Positions 494 through 39,055 of a stretch of DNA of 52,524 nucleotides are shown piece by piece. Source of the DNA: an uncultured Lachnospiraceae bacterium (GTDB lineage Bacteria > Bacillota > Clostridia > Lachnospirales > Lachnospiraceae); contig CADBCZ010000017.1 in NCBI GenBank assembly GCA_902793335.1, positions 1 through 52,524 of the forward strand, given 5' to 3'. Numbering within the stretch: the first letter of the stretch is position 1; each line of letters starts with the position of its first letter. A program made the position numbers and the translations under genes. The notes under the pieces were generated by a model. It was not told the origin of the DNA, did not search any database, and saw only the letters and a program-made list of their open reading frames with translations.

Positions 494-2923
494 TTATTTT
501 GCAACTATATTCACAATCTTGCCGGGAACATAAATCTCTTTAATCACATTAAGTCCATCAAGCTTATCAGCAAGTGCCTCTTTACCCTTGGCAAGAACAG
601 CATCCTTAGCTTCATCAGCCGCAATATCAATCGTTGCTTTTGTCTTACCGTTAATCTGAACAGGAATTGTGATAACATTATCGTTAATCATTTCCTCATC
701 ATATGTCGGCCATCCTGCAGCAAATACAGATCCTTCGCCTCCTAAGCTCTCCCAAAGTTCCTCACCAACATGAGGTGCAAATGGTGCAATAAGTCTTACC
801 ATAGTCTTTAATGTCTCACGGTCAACACCTGTAGTCTTGGTAAGCTCTACAAACTTGTTGTTATACTCCATAAATCCGGAAATAACTGTATTAAGCGAGA
901 AGCTCTCAAGACGGGTTGTAATTACATGTGTAAGCTTATGACGAAGCTTAACTAACTCATCTGTCTCTTCTGCATTCTTCTCAATGTTGTTCATAACCAT
1001 TGTATAGAATCTTGCAAGGAAACGATATACACCATCTATTCCTCTATCATCCCAGATTGAATCAAGCTCAGGTGGTCCGATAAAGAGCTCATAGAGTCTT
1101 AATGCATCGCAACCATAATCTCTTACCATATCATCTGGTGATACGATATTACCAAGTGACTTACTCATCTTAGTAGCAGCACCTGTATCCTTATCACGAC
1201 CACAGATCATACCCTGATTGAACAGCTTCTTGAATGGCTCATCAAAATCAACAACACCTATATCATTTAAGAACTTGGTATAGAAACGTGAGTAGAGCAA
1301 ATGAAGTACTGCATGCTCAACGCCTCCAATATACATATCAACAGGGAGATACTTGTCTGCTTTCTCCTTGTCAACCAAAGCCTTGTCATTCTTGCTGTCA
1401 ACATATCGAAGGAAATACCATGATGATCCAGCCCACTGAGGCATAGTGTTTGTCTCACGTTTTGCAGGCTTACCACACTTAGGACATGTGGTATTAACCC
1501 ATGAATCTATTGCTGCAAGCGGTGACTCACCTGTTCCTGTTGGCTCGTACTTCTCAACATCAGGTAAAAGTACAGGAAGCTGATCTTCCGGAACTGCAAC
1601 TGCACCACAGTCAGGACAGTGAATGATTGGAATAGGCTCGCCCCAGTATCTCTGACGTGAGAATACCCAGTCACGAAGCTTGTAATTAACAGTCTTCTTA
1701 CCATATCCCATCTTCTCGATCATTTCAGGTGCTTCGCGTTTAAGGTCAGCTGACTCTCTTCCGTTCCACTCACCAGAATTGATCATTGTTCCCTTAGCTT
1801 CTGTATAAGCCTCTTCCATATTCTCAATTTCCTTACCGTCCTCAGCGATTACCTGAACGATAGGAAGGTCGAATTTCTTAGCAAATGCGAAGTCTCTGTC
1901 ATCATGAGCAGGTACGCACATGATAGCTCCTGTACCGTAATCTGCAAGTACGTAGTCTGATAACCATATAGGAGTCTTTGCACCATTTAACGGATTGATT
2001 GCATAAGAACCGGTAAATACACCTGTCTTTTCCTTATCCTGCATACGGTCTACGTTAGACTTCATCGATGCATCATAGATATATTTCTCAACTGCTTCTC
2101 TTGTCTCATCTGTTGCAAGCTTTGCTGCAAGTGCATGTTCAGGAGCGAGTACCATAAATGTTGCACCATAGAGTGTGTCTGGTCTTGTAGTATACACGGT
2201 AATGCTCTCATCCATTCCGTCAACCTTGAAATCAACCTCTGCACCGTAAGACTTACCGATCCAGTCTGTCTGCATTTTCTTAACCTTCTCAGGCCAGTCA
2301 AGCTTATCAAGATCATTTAACAATCTGTCAGCATAAGCTGTAATCTTGAGCATCCACTGACGAAGATTCTTCTTGGTAACCTCGCTGTGGCAACGCTCAC
2401 ATTTACCATCTACTACTTCTTCGTTAGCAAGACCTGTCTTACATGAAGGACACCAGTTGATAGGCATCTCCTTCTCATATGCAAGTCCCTTTTCAAACAT
2501 CTTAACAAATATCCACTGAGTCCACTTATAATAGTTAGGATCTGTAGTATTAACCTCTCTGTCCCAATCGTATATAGCAGCTATCTCATTGATCTGCTTC
2601 TTGATATTAGCAACATTCTCAGCTGTAGAGATAGATGGATGAATACCATGCTTGATAGCATAATTCTCAGCCGGAAGTCCGAATGCATCCCATCCCATCG
2701 GGTGAATTAAGTAATATCCCTGCATGAGTTTGTATCTACTCCATACATCCGAGATTACATATCCTCTCCAATGTCCAACATGAAGTCCGTTTCCTGATGG
2801 ATACGGAAACATATCAAGACAGTAGTATTTCGGTTTCTTACCGTCTTCAACATTGATAGGATCTTTCTCCCATCTCTCCTTCCATTTACCTTCAATCAGT
2901 CTGTGATTGTACGATGTTGCCAT
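494..2923 (-). CDS. leuS: Leucyl-tRNA synthetase
   Basis: Class I aminoacyl-tRNA synthetase that charges tRNA-Leu in the cytoplasm, at 809 aa the usual bacterial length. The ATP-site HIGH signature appears as HVGH at residues 48-51, and KMSKS lies near residue 585. A CPSC...CERC zinc-type knuckle is at about 158-179, and the editing domain occupies roughly 220-410. The start is ATG in MATSYNHR with an AGGAGGACC-like ribosome site just upstream. No T-box leader was recognised in the upstream region, so regulation is not evident. It appears to be monocistronic. Confidence 0.98.
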   Translation of the reverse strand: MATSYNHRLIEGKWKERWEKDPINVEDGKKPKYYCLDMFPYPSGNGLHVGHWRGYVISDVWSRYKLMQGYYLIHPMGWDAFGLPAENYAIKHGIHPSISTAENVANIKKQINEIAAIYDWDREVNTTDPNYYKWTQWIFVKMFEKGLAYEKEMPINWCPSCKTGLANEEVVDGKCERCHSEVTKKNLRQWMLKITAYADRLLNDLDKLDWPEKVKKMQTDWIGKSYGAEVDFKVDGMDESITVYTTRPDTLYGATFMVLAPEHALAAKLATDETREAVEKYIYDASMKSNVDRMQDKEKTGVFTGSYAINPLNGAKTPIWLSDYVLADYGTGAIMCVPAHDDRDFAFAKKFDLPIVQVIAEDGKEIENMEEAYTEAKGTMINSGEWNGRESADLKREAPEMIEKMGYGKKTVNYKLRDWVFSRQRYWGEPIPIIHCPDCGAVAVPEDQLPVLLPDVEKYEPTGTGESPLAAIDSWVNTTCPKCGKPAKRETNTMPQWAGSSWYFLRYVDSKNDKALVDKEKADKYLPVDMYIGGVEHAVLHLLYSRFYTKFLNDIGVVDFDEPFKKLFNQGMICGRDKDTGAATKMSKSLGNIVSPDDMVRDYGCDALRLYELFIGPPELDSIWDDRGIDGVYRFLARFYTMVMNNIEKNAEETDELVKLRHKLTHVITTRLESFSLNTVISGFMEYNNKFVELTKTTGVDRETLKTMVRLIAPFAPHVGEELWESLGGEGSVFAAGWPTYDEEMINDNVITIPVQINGKTKATIDIAADEAKDAVLAKGKEALADKLDGLNVIKEIYVPGKIVNIVAK

Positions 2924-2952
2924 TTTGTGGTCCTCCTTATATATTGCAAATT

Positions 2953-3168
2953 AATATTATGATATAAGTGTCAAAAGTCCAAACTGCTTTGTGCTTACAC
3001 AAAATACAGTTTGACTTTATGACACGACCAAACATGAGGAAGTAACGGTTTTCTTTGAAAACCAGTGGATTCCGAATGTTTGTAGAGTTGCAGGAATTAC
3101 GAAGTAATAGAGCAACTCGTATATCATTTGGTGGCAAAAGATACTTTTGACATCCATATCATATTATT
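2953..3168. repeat. 216-bp inverted-repeat element with three internal hairpins
   Basis: Terminal inverted repeats of 26 bp lie at 2953-2978 and 3143-3168 and match at 22 of 26 positions; both contain TGTCAAAAGT or its complement. Inside are three further stem-loops: 2975-3014 (AAACTG..CAGTTT with inner TTTGTG/CACAAA), 3029-3082 (CAAACAT..ATGTTTG with inner GGTTTTC/GAAAACC), and 3086-3118 (AGTTGC..GCAACT with inner ATTAC/GTAAT). The whole folds on paper as an outer stem with three branches. It lies in the upstream gap of leuS. It could be a MITE or a structured RNA; no similar copy was seen in the window. Confidence 0.6.
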
Positions 3169-3422
3169 CATAACTATCATTGATTCGTTATCTAAAATCA
3201 ATCTGAAATATTATATCACTTTTGTCTGTCAGAAACAAGGAATTTTCTTCTTCATCTTAAAACCATACTCTCATAACAGGAAGAATCTTAATCTTACTCA
3301 TTTTGAATCTGTTCTTAACAGTTTCAATCCTCAATGATTTCATTCAACATTTCCCCCTTCAAAAGAGTATTGGGTATGACAAAAGAAGTTTCGCAATTTC
3401 CCAAATATCTTTTCAAACAAAT
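3169..3422. other. Remainder of the leuS upstream gap, no gene recognised
   Basis: This AT-rich stretch lies between the inverted-repeat element and the terminator of the L,D-transpeptidase gene. It probably contains the leuS promoter, although that would place the inverted-repeat element in the leuS leader. I see no T-box signature, no ribosome-site-backed open frame and no strong hairpin. Confidence 0.4.
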
Positions 3423-28250: not shown

Positions 28251-28257
28251 GGTAACT

Positions 28258-28600
28258 GACTTGACCAAATGATCGCGGCTGCGAAAAGGAAACGTCGCAG
28301 GTGAGGAAAGTCCGGGCTTCATAGGGCAGGGTGCCGGATAACGTCCGGTAGAGGCGACTCTCAGGCTAGTGCAACAGAAATAAACCGCCAGTGTACACTG
28401 GTAAGGGTGGAAAGGCGAGGTAAGAGCTCACCGCTATTTTGGTAACAGAATAGGCTCTGTAAACCCCACTCGAAGCAAGACCGCATAGGGGACCATGTGG
28501 CTGCCCGTCACGTCTCCGGGTAGGTCGCTTGAACCTGTTGGTAACAGCAGGTCTAGATAGATGATCATTCAACGACATAACCCGGCTTATCGATCAAGTC
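28258..28600 (+). ncRNA. rnpB: RNase P RNA
   Basis: The catalytic RNA that matures tRNA 5' ends. The ends pair as P1 (GACTTGA at 28258-28264 with TCAAGTC at 28594-28600). Conserved core blocks are visible: GAGGAAAGTCCGGGCT near the 5' side, AGGGCAGG.TGCCGGATAACGTCCGG, GAAGCAAGACC, GGTAACAGCAGG and AGATAGATGA..ACCCGGCTTAT at the 3' side. The length of about 343 nt is usual. It is on the strand opposite to nearly all genes here and close to a tRNA cluster some 10 kb away. Confidence 0.95.
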
Positions 28601-28604
28601 CAAC

Positions 28605-28655
28605 AAAAAAACCATTACAGTCAGGATAATCTATCCGCGCTGTAATGGTTTTTTT
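28605..28655. terminator. Bidirectional terminator between rnpB and the nucleoside kinase
   Basis: A 9-bp stem (CCATTACAG / CTGTAATGG) has T7 on both sides (A7 at 28605-28611, T7 at 28649-28655). It also has an inner stem GGATA / TATCC. It serves plus-strand rnpB and the convergent minus-strand gene ending at 28666. Confidence 0.92.
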
Positions 28656-36236: not shown

Positions 36237-37730
36237 TTATTGCTCCGATATAACAGATAGCGGATCAACATATTCACCACTTGTATTAATAACTCCTAAA
36301 TGCAGATGCGGACCCGTGGAATTACCACTATTACCAACAGCACCAATTTTCTGGCCTTTTTTAACTTCATCACCCGCAGCTACCATTAATTCATCCAGCA
36401 TATGAGCATATAAATATTTAGTACCATCGTCACCTTTAATAATTACATAATTTCCTAAATCATCTTTAAAACCGGCTTCCTCTACACTACCGGCACATAC
36501 AGAGACGATTTCTGTACCATCAGATGCGCAAAAATCTGTTCCTTTATGTTTTTCACCAAACTGACACGTGATTATTGCTTTTTCATCTGATATCGGGAAA
36601 CAAAATACTTCTCCAGTCTGTATATCTGCATCAACCTCCTGATCGACTTGTTCCTGACTATCTGATTTCTTATCAACCTGTTCCGAAACAACCGGCTCAT
36701 TGTCTATTTGTTCCGAAGTAGACGGTTCCTTATCATTTTTGATATTCTGTGCTGCATCAACCTTGCCAGAATGCGGGTATGTCAGAAATCCGACTGTCAA
36801 AGCTCCCAGCACTAAAAATGCCATAGCTACAATTATTTTCTTATTCTTTTCCATATTAATTATATTTTTCACCCTTTCCTTAGTTCCAATCTCTCCAAAC
36901 GCAACAGGGCAAGCCGAAATCATCCGTCTCGGAATGCTCATATCGAGCAGCGTCTGGGAATAAATTTTCTTCTTGTCATATCCTATTTTTCTAATTACTT
37001 TTTCGTCACATGCCAATTCTATATCCTTACAGAAAACGCTATACGCAATCCATACCGCAGGATTAAACCAGTGCATAGCAACTATAAAAAAACCTATAGG
37101 TTTTGCAAGATGATCACCTCTTTTGTAATGTGCAATTTCATGATTTAAAATCATAAACATTTCAGTCTTGTCAAGTCCTGATGGAATATATATTCTCGGA
37201 TTAATAATTCCTATTACAAATGCTGTATCAATTCTTTCCGACTCATATACATTTTTCCATGGAACCATTTGATTAACTACACTGTTCTTAACAGGAATTG
37301 CATCGCTTATACATTTCTTTAAATTTAAATATAATGATAATGCATAAACTATTGTTAACACAAATCCTATGATCCAGATAAGTGAAAAAATGTCCATCTC
37401 ATCCAATCCCTTATCAAAGGTTTTTTTATCTAAATTCGTTATCTCCGAATCAGTACTATTAAGGATGAACAGTGAATTATCACTTATCTCTTGTGAATTA
37501 ATATTTTCACCATAGCTATCCATATCCACAACATACTCTCTTGCAGGAAGCAGACTAAACGGGCTTTCAATTGTAAACGGTACAAGCAGCCTCACCCCTA
37601 CAAGTATCCATATAAGACATCTGATATACTTTGGCATTTGCTTAAACAAAAATCTCACCAATATACAAGCAGCTATCAGAAATGAAGCCGAAATACTCAT
37701 ATTAATTATTTCAGTAAATACCTCTCTCAT
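36237..37730 (-). CDS. BlaR1-type M56 membrane metalloprotease fused to an M23 (LytM) peptidase
   Basis: The N-terminal ~300 residues are a BlaR1/MecR1-like antirepressor: membrane helices at the start, the zinc motif LNHEIAHYKRGDH (near 197), and ELACDEKVI. A further helix (IVAMAFLVLGALTVGFL) leads to a Glu/Gln-rich spacer with four EQVD-like repeats. In place of a beta-lactam-binding sensor, the last ~110 residues are an M23 endopeptidase with KHKGTDFCAS (near 395), YAHMLDEL and GPHLHLGV (near 475). Both catalytic sites look intact. It lies 26 bp after a BlaI-type repressor gene. Sensing of wall fragments or damage is inferred. Confidence 0.9.
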   Translation of the reverse strand: MREVFTEIINMSISASFLIAACILVRFLFKQMPKYIRCLIWILVGVRLLVPFTIESPFSLLPAREYVVDMDSYGENINSQEISDNSLFILNSTDSEITNLDKKTFDKGLDEMDIFSLIWIIGFVLTIVYALSLYLNLKKCISDAIPVKNSVVNQMVPWKNVYESERIDTAFVIGIINPRIYIPSGLDKTEMFMILNHEIAHYKRGDHLAKPIGFFIVAMHWFNPAVWIAYSVFCKDIELACDEKVIRKIGYDKKKIYSQTLLDMSIPRRMISACPVAFGEIGTKERVKNIINMEKNKKIIVAMAFLVLGALTVGFLTYPHSGKVDAAQNIKNDKEPSTSEQIDNEPVVSEQVDKKSDSQEQVDQEVDADIQTGEVFCFPISDEKAIITCQFGEKHKGTDFCASDGTEIVSVCAGSVEEAGFKDDLGNYVIIKGDDGTKYLYAHMLDELMVAAGDEVKKGQKIGAVGNSGNSTGPHLHLGVINTSGEYVDPLSVISEQ

Positions 37731-37756: not shown

Positions 37757-38119
37757 CTAATTATCTTTGCACTCATCAATCATCTTCTGGATTTCATCAA
37801 TCTCATTTTTCGAGAGTTTCCTGTTCCTTGTAAATGCAGCAATAAATTGAGGTATACTGCCATTAAATGTTCTTTCTACCACCTCATCAATTTGTGACTC
37901 CTGAACCTGCTCCTTTGTTACAAGAGACGTTATAACCGCATTTTCGCTTTTTATCACACCTCTCTCGCTAAGTCTCTTAATTACGGTGTATGTTGTAGCC
38001 TTCTTCCATCCAAGCTCTGCTTCACAAAGCTTCGACAATTCCGTACTCTTGATAGGTTCATGATCCCATAATATCTGACAAAACCTATATTCACTTTCAA
38101 AAACCTTAGGTGTTTCCAT
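37757..38119 (-). CDS. BlaI/MecI-family transcriptional repressor
   Basis: A 120-aa winged-helix repressor that in the family is released by cleavage when its BlaR1-type partner is activated. The DNA-binding region contains WDHEPIKSTELSKLCEAELG and WKKATTYTVIKRLSERGVI; the C-terminal dimer region contains ISQF-like hydrophobics and ends near KDN. GAGGTAG precedes the ATG. The promoter at 38178-38206 is overlapped by palindromes, which suggests that it controls itself and the M56-M23 gene. Confidence 0.93.
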   Translation of the reverse strand: METPKVFESEYRFCQILWDHEPIKSTELSKLCEAELGWKKATTYTVIKRLSERGVIKSENAVITSLVTKEQVQESQIDEVVERTFNGSIPQFIAAFTRNRKLSKNEIDEIQKMIDECKDN

Positions 38120-38153
38120 AAAATCTACCTCTTTAAATATATGCGCATAATAT

Positions 38154-38196
38154 TGGTCGAATGTATTCGACTATTTTAGTCTAACGCATTCGACCA
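38154..38196. promoter_or_regulatory. Palindromic operator of the BlaI-type repressor
   Basis: A perfect 10-bp inverted repeat, TGGTCGAATG (38154-38163) and CATTCGACCA (38187-38196), spans the promoter -10. Each end is also a near-palindrome of its own (GTCGAATGTATTCGAC at 38156-38171; GTCTAACGCATTCGAC at 38179-38194). This is a double-operator layout expected for a dimeric repressor. Confidence 0.8.
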
Positions 38197-38206
38197 CTTT
38201 TGTCAA
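38178..38206 (-). promoter_or_regulatory. Promoter of the BlaI / M56-M23 operon
   Basis: On the minus strand a perfect -35 TTGACA (38201-38206) and a -10 TAGACT (38178-38183) have a 17-bp spacer. The operator covers the -10 and the start region. Confidence 0.75.
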
Positions 38207-38328
38207 CCATTAAAATTTCGTTTTTTTCACCTGTGCCGACCAAGCGGCATCCCTCACGCCGCGAGACAAAACCTCTGGTTCGAGGCACGCGTTCAGATAA
38301 CGTGGATGACAGGGTGAGACGGAAATAG

Positions 38329-38351
38329 AAAAAGGTCCGGCGGACCTTTTT
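38329..38351. terminator. Perfect palindrome, terminator-like
   Basis: AAAAAGGTCCG and CGGACCTTTTT flank a single base, so each strand has a GC-rich stem followed by T5. It lies inside the repeat block and could end transcription in either direction. Confidence 0.65.
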
Positions 38352-38559
38352 CCCGTCGAACCGACCGACGTGGTGTTCACACACCACGGAGAACGAACCT
38401 CAGGTTCGATTCTCCGCCGCATCAAACTTCATGCCTCACCATTTGCGGATGACAGGGCGCAATGCGTCCGGTGGACGCATGCTCTGCGCCGACCGAGCGG
38501 CATCCCTCATGCCGCGAGACAGAACCACAGGTTCGAGGCACGCATCTGCGTGCCATGAA

Positions 38560-38598
38560 AGAAAAAAAGCAGATGCTCTCACATCTGCTTTTTCTTTC
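38560..38598. terminator. Bidirectional terminator after tRNA-Leu
   Basis: An 8-bp stem (AGCAGATG at 38568-38575, CATCTGCT at 38582-38589) extends through A/T-rich flanks, with T7 on the minus side and T5 on the plus side. It lies just past the 3' end of the last tRNA of the minus-strand cluster. Confidence 0.9.
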
Positions 38599-38604
38599 AT
38601 CTCA

Positions 38605-38684
38605 TGCGGATGACAGGAATCGAACCTGCACACCGAAGTACTAGATCCTAAGTCTAGCGCGTCTGCCAGTTCCGCCACATCCGC
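38605..38684 (-). tRNA. tRNA-Leu (anticodon UAG)
   Basis: The acceptor stem GCGGATG / CATCCGC closes. The anticodon loop CTTAGGA within CTAGA/TCTAG gives UAG. A variable arm (ACTTCGGT) and the T-arm CAGGTTCGATTCCTG are present. CCA is not encoded. A frame reading MAELADALDLGSS across it is an artefact of tRNA sequence. Confidence 0.95.
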
Positions 38685-38980: not shown

Positions 38981-39055
38981 GGTGGGTAAAGGGATTCGAA
39001 CCCTTGGCCTCCAGAGCCACAATCTGGCGCGCTAACCAACTGCGCCATACCCACC
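38981..39055 (-). tRNA. tRNA-His (anticodon GUG)
   Basis: The acceptor stem is GTGGGTA / TACCCAC with the extra 5' G(-1) pairing with C73 that is typical of tRNA-His. The loop TTGTGGC between CCAGA and TCTGG gives GUG. No CCA is encoded. Confidence 0.96.

Follow-up and report, generated by a model that had tools for sequence, protein, structure and literature searches.

The hairpin-rich block at positions 38215-38604 of the window (the whole stretch of 52,524 nucleotides [nt] from an uncultured Lachnospiraceae bacterium) consists, read on the minus strand, of two complete hairpin units and one remnant located 3′ of tRNA-Leu(tag). Most units of this kind end in a copy of nt 61-73 of the local tRNA, on the tRNA strand. 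Similar units stand behind different tRNA genes, each with its local tail, and at one locus only, a unit with a single tail copy lies between the tRNA end and the DNA that adjoins the tRNA in unit-free relatives. The explanation that we moderately favor is that the units are chromosomal, mostly gene-less mini-elements that enter at tRNA 3′ ends, bring a terminator, leave a repeat of nt 61-73, and stack up.

The block belongs to the minus strand, which is the direction of the tRNA, and follows tRNA-Leu(tag) (38605-38684, minus strand, found by ARAGORN and Rfam, with nt 61-73 at 38605-38617), the final gene of a seven-tRNA cluster, Pro-Gly-Arg-His-Gln-Lys-Leu. The units are ordered as (terminator), H0 with a T-loop-like foot, GTCTC, hairpin H1, CGGTC, hairpin H2, and the copy of tRNA nt 61-73; the succession H0 (its 3′ foot resembling a T-loop), TCTC, H1, CGGTC, H2, and tail is common to two hairpin types, A and B. 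Unit 1 (type B, 38444-38604, minus strand, spanning everything from the tRNA end through tail 1) begins with an intrinsic terminator hairpin adjoining the tRNA (38564-38593, minus strand, with perfect 12-bp arms at 38564-38575 and 38582-38593 and a T-run in the minus direction; the terminator scan lists this stem on the plus strand only). It continues on the same strand with the H0 foot containing a T-loop-like GGTTC, TCTC, and H1 (38494-38543); with H2, which follows CGGTC and reads GGCGC...GTCCACCGGAC...GCGCC (38456-38490); and with tail 1 (38444-38456), an exact copy of tRNA nt 61-73 that contains GCGGATGACAGG. Unit 2 (type A, 38301-38443, minus strand) includes an A-tract/T-tract hairpin at 38328-38352 and H0 around 38387-38416, and its tail (38301-38313, minus strand, containing GTGGATGACAGG) copies tRNA nt 61-73 at 11 of 13 positions as counted by eye; the exact ends of the tRNA 3′-end copies were likewise read by eye. 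Unit 3 (38231-38300, minus strand) is a truncated type-B remnant in which the CGGTC motif appears as TGGTC and most of H2 and the tail are absent. The GC-rich hairpins extend from the terminator down to about 38231.

The sequence-only reading had described two 61-bp modules 253 bp apart with 53/61 identical positions. The start-to-start spacing of 253 stands, while size and identity are amended to two 60-bp copies (38231-38290 and 38484-38543) that are 90% identical. This repeat exists because units 1 and 3 share hairpin type B; the meaningful unit is the stretch from one tRNA 3′-end copy to the next, rather than the 61 bp, and 38301-38443, in the middle, belongs to a second hairpin type. The modules do alternate with tRNA 3′-end copies, which lie inside the two tails, the third being the end of tRNA-Leu(tag) itself, and the block has no gene, only short overlapping ORFs. 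The description of the block as richer in GC and stem-loops than the rest of the window was also confirmed. Its GC content is 55.1%, compared with 38.1% for the window as a whole, and among 10,427 segments of 390 bp tested, none outside 38100-38620 was as GC-rich (the richest away from the block, 53.6% at 38981, is the tRNA cluster). Six perfect hairpins (arm of ≥7, loop of 3 to 8) occur in the block and at most four in any 390-bp segment elsewhere. On either strand, the block is predicted to fold much more strongly than 100 shuffled sequences (z of −7.63 for minus and −9.07 for plus), as expected because the sequences are palindromes. In this region, only the tRNAs reached the gathering score with Rfam 15, and 38150-38640 gave six matches (up to an E value of 1), all below their cut-offs.

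The block had been open to the objection that it might occur only at this place; many copies were found in relatives. A second array lies 3′ of tRNA-Arg(acg) in the own genome. By blastn, the block matched 12 of 40 genomes, the own genome included (11 of the 23 further species from the genus, and none of the 16 genomes from other families of the order), and 33 genomes, again including the own, of a family-wide draw of 150; the matches in both sets include some dispersed H2 relatives that are not tRNA units. With one genome taken per species, the exact type-A pattern was found at 92 sites, which lie in 86 loci, every one labeled Lachnospiraceae or related Eubacteriales/Clostridia, with hosts that include Butyrivibrio, Pseudobutyrivibrio, Lachnospira, and Eubacterium oxidoreducens. 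Arrays were present at 75 of 200 tRNA loci (65 Leu, 7 Arg, of which one, L116, is doubtful, and 3 Gly, with no other amino acid seen), numbers that are biased as frequencies because the loci were mostly selected by motif; 20 of the 75 array loci carry tandem arrays. Among 102 units, 87 are ≤200 bp and 13 are 201 to 450 bp long, and the remaining two measure 1,603 and 3,967 bp. The 3,967-bp unit is probably an island, since it spans a second T-loop copy and genes (Fic and DUF4417). The 1,603-bp unit (L100, Pseudobutyrivibrio, about 1777-3379, minus strand) is the clearest gene-bearing unit, with a PD-(D/E)XK ORF (PF12784) flanked by two identical core-and-tail copies.

A same-strand tRNA, mostly Leu, lies ≤400 nt upstream of 65 of the 92 type-A sites, and none of the 92 has solely an opposite-strand or downstream tRNA nearby. 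Fourteen of the other sites are at the edge of the sequenced locus examined, three have a tRNA farther up, and ten have no tRNA in the locus. At four of these ten (L091, L107, L111, and L158), a broken-off tRNA 3′ end is found just upstream, as behind an island, and L111 also has a phage-type integrase gene upstream. At L091, the island end in the tRNA T-loop adjoins a 447-amino-acid protein, encoded by an ORF that starts and ends about 875-2215 nt above the type-A site on its upstream side, which resembles a rolling-circle Rep. At four further sites (L117, L118, L146, and L159), the type-A core begins abruptly at GTTCAAGGTCTCC or a similar sequence, and foreign DNA upstream replaces tRNA, terminator, and H0; the T-loop-like foot may itself be a breakpoint. 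For the 27 sites without an upstream tRNA, one of which (L110) is probably a false match, 21 showed no copied 3′ flank above controls, and a flank copied at 10 to 12 of 12 positions was seen at L023, L062, L076, L089, L097, and one copy at L074, the first five being tRNA-like tails. At another locus (L106), tRNA-Leu(aag) plus its unit is duplicated in tandem (405 bp).

The tails follow the local tRNA. At 60 type-A sites (of 65 near a tRNA; the five without an anchor were left out), tail and tRNA agree at a mean of 10.82 of 12 positions (nt 62-73), compared with a mean of 8.89 and a maximum of 9.38 when tails were permuted among loci in 2,000 trials. The 37 Leu(aag) sites alone gave an agreement of 11.22 against a permutation maximum of 10.89. 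Compared with 16 other distinct tRNA ends, the own end was the best match for 50 tails, tied for 2, and was beaten for 8. Among these eight, L088, L102, and L125 are register slips, and L142 contains a stretch that is tRNA-Arg-like but was left uncalled by ARAGORN; true differences between tail and tRNA number 4 of 60 (L086, L122, L141, and L153), mainly at nt 64. Over all tails, mismatches are most frequent at nt 72-73 and 64. A tRNA lies within 700 nt of 24 type-B sites, and at 16 of these the tail agrees with it in 9 or 10 of 10 letters; at the other eight, mostly the next core follows, the locus end cuts the tail, or the wrong tRNA was assigned. The proposal of a tRNA-3′-targeting repeat family is thereby well supported, by the many copies in relatives, their position behind tRNA genes and on the tRNA strand, and 3′ copies that follow the local tRNA.

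Units are also shared between tRNA genes of one genome. In genome G005, the Leu(aag) and Leu(cag) units are 82% identical, each with its local tail (the two tails have 9 of 13 letters in common), and they are 63 to 66% identical to the Leu(tag) and Leu(caa) units of that genome; the Leu(aag) unit is 78% identical to the Leu(tag) unit of the window and 63% identical to the Leu(tag) unit of G005. The tRNA cluster of the window occurs, whole or in part, in 17 of 26 genus genomes, the own included. The Leu(tag) end is visible in 16 genus genomes; units, judged by eye within 420 nt, are present in six, partial in one (G010, with terminator and H0 only), and absent in nine. In one filled genome, G018, where 143 bp separate the tRNA end from the tail end, the sequence behind the tail can be aligned, starting at its very first bases, with the stretch immediately following the tRNA in the unit-free G019 (18/21 positions, score of 27; shuffles gave a mean of 18.3, and 0 of 300 scored as high); for two further genomes, G009 and G020, the scores are 24 and 22. 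In G018 itself, the DNA next to the tRNA does not match the unit-free relatives (P = 0.26). At the other five filled Leu(tag) sites, the match of post-tail DNA to unit-free DNA is nonsignificant (P from 0.08 to 0.96); a significant match of the kind expected if removal of the unit restored the original downstream DNA was obtained at one of six filled sites. For the DNA directly after the tRNA, one of the six reaches a P value of 0.04 (G005). The shuffles preserve base composition only, and the sequence is T-rich.

At Leu(cag), a unit is present in G005 and mostly missing in G002, with flanks that are 84% and 91% identical. G002 more likely represents a deletion than a clean empty site, because it retains the terminator together with 16 nt of the tRNA end in inverted orientation; this comparison covered 3 of 26 genomes, under a strict E-value limit. 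At another pair of loci (L130 and L134), the DNA upstream of the tRNA is 90% alike and the DNA downstream is without a match. An intrinsic terminator follows the tRNA at 46 of 58 sites, the last tail at 7 of 43, and control positions farther downstream at 6 of 140. The prediction that the last tail is a displaced tRNA end thus receives weak support, with terminators after the last tail at only 7 of 43 sites, and we did not adopt a displaced terminator as a general rule. The mobility suggested in the sequence-only reading is supported indirectly, by the comparison of filled and unit-free sites, by the G005/G002 locus, and by the likeness of units across tRNA genes; neither an enzyme nor movement was seen.

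In an alignment of 48 type-A units (12 of 60 were omitted, mainly nested or disrupted ones), the RNAalifold consensus contains H2 but neither H0 nor H1. Both sides vary in 3 of the 21 pairs predicted for H2, in 14 sequences for one pair and in 19 for another. Measured per sequence, the H1 stem averages 5.04 compared with 3.12 in shuffles, with 32 different arms, and the H0 stem averages 7.38 compared with 4.13, with 33 different arms. The TCTC and CGGTCGGTTCG joints are nearly fixed, CGGTCGGTTCG because it was used as the search pattern. Folding thus seems to be kept while the sequence changes, which would fit RNA or single-stranded DNA equally. An origin as decayed tRNA-terminator copies, also suggested earlier, agrees with the terminators and tRNA 3′ pieces found in the units but not with stems that are kept despite sequence change. 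In several units, part of the tRNA end is found inverted within the 5′ arm of H0. A form shortened to GTCTNCGCTNCGCTNCGGTC and H2 occurs at places without a tRNA and also nested within units; this dispersed form is REP-like, and no target duplication was seen by eye at such relatives (L071 compared with L064 and L065; L132 compared with L151). L064, L065, and L071 are dispersed core relatives within the same flanking repeat in three genomes, and L071 has an additional core copy, inserted without target duplication.

Units of this kind resemble tRNA islands and REPs, yet they fail a defining test of each. In integron gene-cassette arrays, units that each carry a folded 3′ site line up in tandem and in one orientation behind a single anchor. 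The tandem same-orientation layout behind one anchor and a rare gene-bearing unit (1,603 bp) recall them; in contrast to cassettes, nearly all units are gene-less and the repeat is the host tRNA end. Tycheposons and similar elements are kilobase elements with genes and recombinases. They and other tRNA-anchored integrative elements would share with the units the anchoring of integration at a tRNA. The report on tyrosine-integrase tRNA islands (PMC4383910) describes a same-orientation tRNA 3′ fragment that marks the far end, a copy boundary near the T-loop/T-stem, and tandem arrays. Correspondingly, the tail of a unit is nt 61-73 of an intact upstream tRNA on the same strand, and true islands were found at the same tRNAs as units (L111, with an integrase). 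The units differ in their typical size of 70 to 200 bp, in having neither genes nor an integrase, in their conserved hairpin right end, and in not being seen on phages, plasmids, or viral contigs. Islander drops candidates of <2 kb (PMC4383910); the units in the window are gene-free, with no integrase gene inside, and 100 of 102 units are ≤450 bp. REP/RAYT palindromes, as described in PMC3733652 and PMC2817692, are likewise short and GC-rich, and they have relatives that are dispersed and nested, stems that persist when the sequence changes, and, compared by eye, the same absence of target duplication. Unlike them, the units form tRNA-bound, one-orientation arrays with a copied tRNA end, and where the REP tag beside the palindrome is GTAG or CGTC (PMC3733652, PMC2817692), the units have GTCT/CGGTC, the aligned units showing TCTC and CGGTC joints by eye.

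The own genome has five Y1_Tnp matches, one of them a 231-amino-acid open frame (L168; 212 amino acids scored). No CGGTCSG motif was found around these five loci; the Y1 gene thus lacks surrounding palindromes of this kind, no inverted copies flank it, and a RAYT as driver was rejected for the own genome. Units had no match in viral contigs, plasmids, or phages, and carriage by phage, plasmid, or virus was set aside for those sequence sets. The word formed by tRNA nt 54-72 occurs once in 14, twice in 4, and not at all in 2 of 20 type-A genomes; being mostly single (14/20), it led us to reject the idea that a unit is the near end of a resident island, a weak test because far ends that have degenerated, as at L133, escape a search for the exact word.

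On the mini-element reading, elements of typically 70 to 200 bp would target above all tRNA-Leu. Insertion would leave a 13-bp direct repeat, termination of the tRNA transcript would be preserved by the terminator that the unit brings along, and the stack would grow by repeated insertion or tandem duplication. The enzyme, supplied in trans, could be a site-specific recombinase or a single-strand transposase, and it would recognize H0, H1, and H2 in their folded form. The left boundary of the tail copy, at the T-loop/T-stem border, fits as a candidate crossover region of the tRNA-island type, this border being among those given for tRNA islands in PMC4383910. Against insertion count the nonsignificant post-tail matches at five of six filled Leu(tag) sites, the few terminators after the last tail, the deletion-like G002 locus, the lack of matches in viral contigs, plasmids, or phages, the four tails that truly differ from their tRNA, the left ends of the units, which vary, in contrast to those of an ordinary element, and the inverted tRNA piece in H0, which is better explained by local copying. 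In that scheme, which we regard as unlikely overall, replication fold-back at the terminator hairpin would duplicate the tRNA 3′ end, first in inverted and then in direct orientation, and a REP-like element (GTCT...CGGTC-hairpin) would land in the T-loop of the direct copy, making a tRNA-specific enzyme unnecessary. Besides the inverted piece, of which 16 nt are left in G002, it accounts for the position of the core between a copy of the T-loop sequence and the copy of nt 61-73, for the dispersed and nested core relatives at tRNA-less places, and for near-terminator sequence of G005 that recurs behind the tail. It does not account for units at different tRNA genes being alike beyond their tRNA-derived parts, including the terminator layout, or for G018, where the near terminator is unlike the unit-free relatives and the far DNA is alike.

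The tandem layout and the gene-bearing unit from Pseudobutyrivibrio would suit an integron-like accretion at Lachnospiraceae tRNA genes, in which a recombinase acting on folded H0-H1-CGGTC-H2 would insert units, occasionally gene cassettes (the 1.6-kb PD-(D/E)XK unit), by exchange at nt 61-73, each unit acquiring the host tRNA 3′ end; we think this rather improbable. A similarly low probability is given to a putative structured RNA made by read-through from the tRNA, whose tail and T-loop foot would imitate the 3′ half of the tRNA, with tRNA processing, an RNase, or another RNA as the target. Its single fixed orientation, the tails that remain near the tRNA sequence, the paired changes in H2, and the long H0 and H1 stems with diverse arms would all be expected of such an RNA, but a strong terminator stands between tRNA and hairpins at 46 of 58 sites, the consensus holds H2 alone, Rfam gives no match, and units are absent from related genomes. 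The order of a motif, hairpins, and then 12 to 13 nt matching the target, together with dispersed relatives lacking target duplication by eye, also recalls the guide RNA of a TnpB-type (IS605) nuclease or its relic, with the T-loop as TAM, the hairpins as scaffold, and the tail as guide. This is very improbable: the stems are too variable for the scaffold of one enzyme, and the own genome has no PF07282 (TnpB zinc-ribbon) match above the cut-off, for which reason the idea was rejected. That the block is the leftover of a single duplicated tRNA gene would explain the repeated tRNA 3′ ends, but the conserved sequence between the tails is non-tRNA and many genomes have the same arrangement behind tRNAs for Leu, Arg, and Gly; already contradicted, this has next to no likelihood.

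A search of the literature, with most subscription papers and bioRxiv outside it, found no published account of such units, which fall under the 2-kb filter of Islander (87 of 102 being ≤200 bp) and match no Rfam family. If mobile, they would represent a class of tRNA-targeting mini-element with a putative recombinase, and a record of insertion history at tRNA loci; if RNA, a structured RNA coupled to the tRNA. Either reading can be tested in cultured Butyrivibrio, Pseudobutyrivibrio, and Lachnospira.

Elsewhere in the window, Rfam identified a Clostridiales-1 sRNA (2960-3126, plus strand) and RNase P RNA (28257-28605, plus strand). Adjoining the block on the minus strand (36237-37730 and 37757-38119) are a 497-amino-acid ORF and a regulator of the penicillinase-repressor type (PF03965); the ORF is presumably an M56/BlaR1-type membrane peptidase, judging by eye. 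An imperfect 25-bp inverted repeat (38149-38201) could be the corresponding operator.
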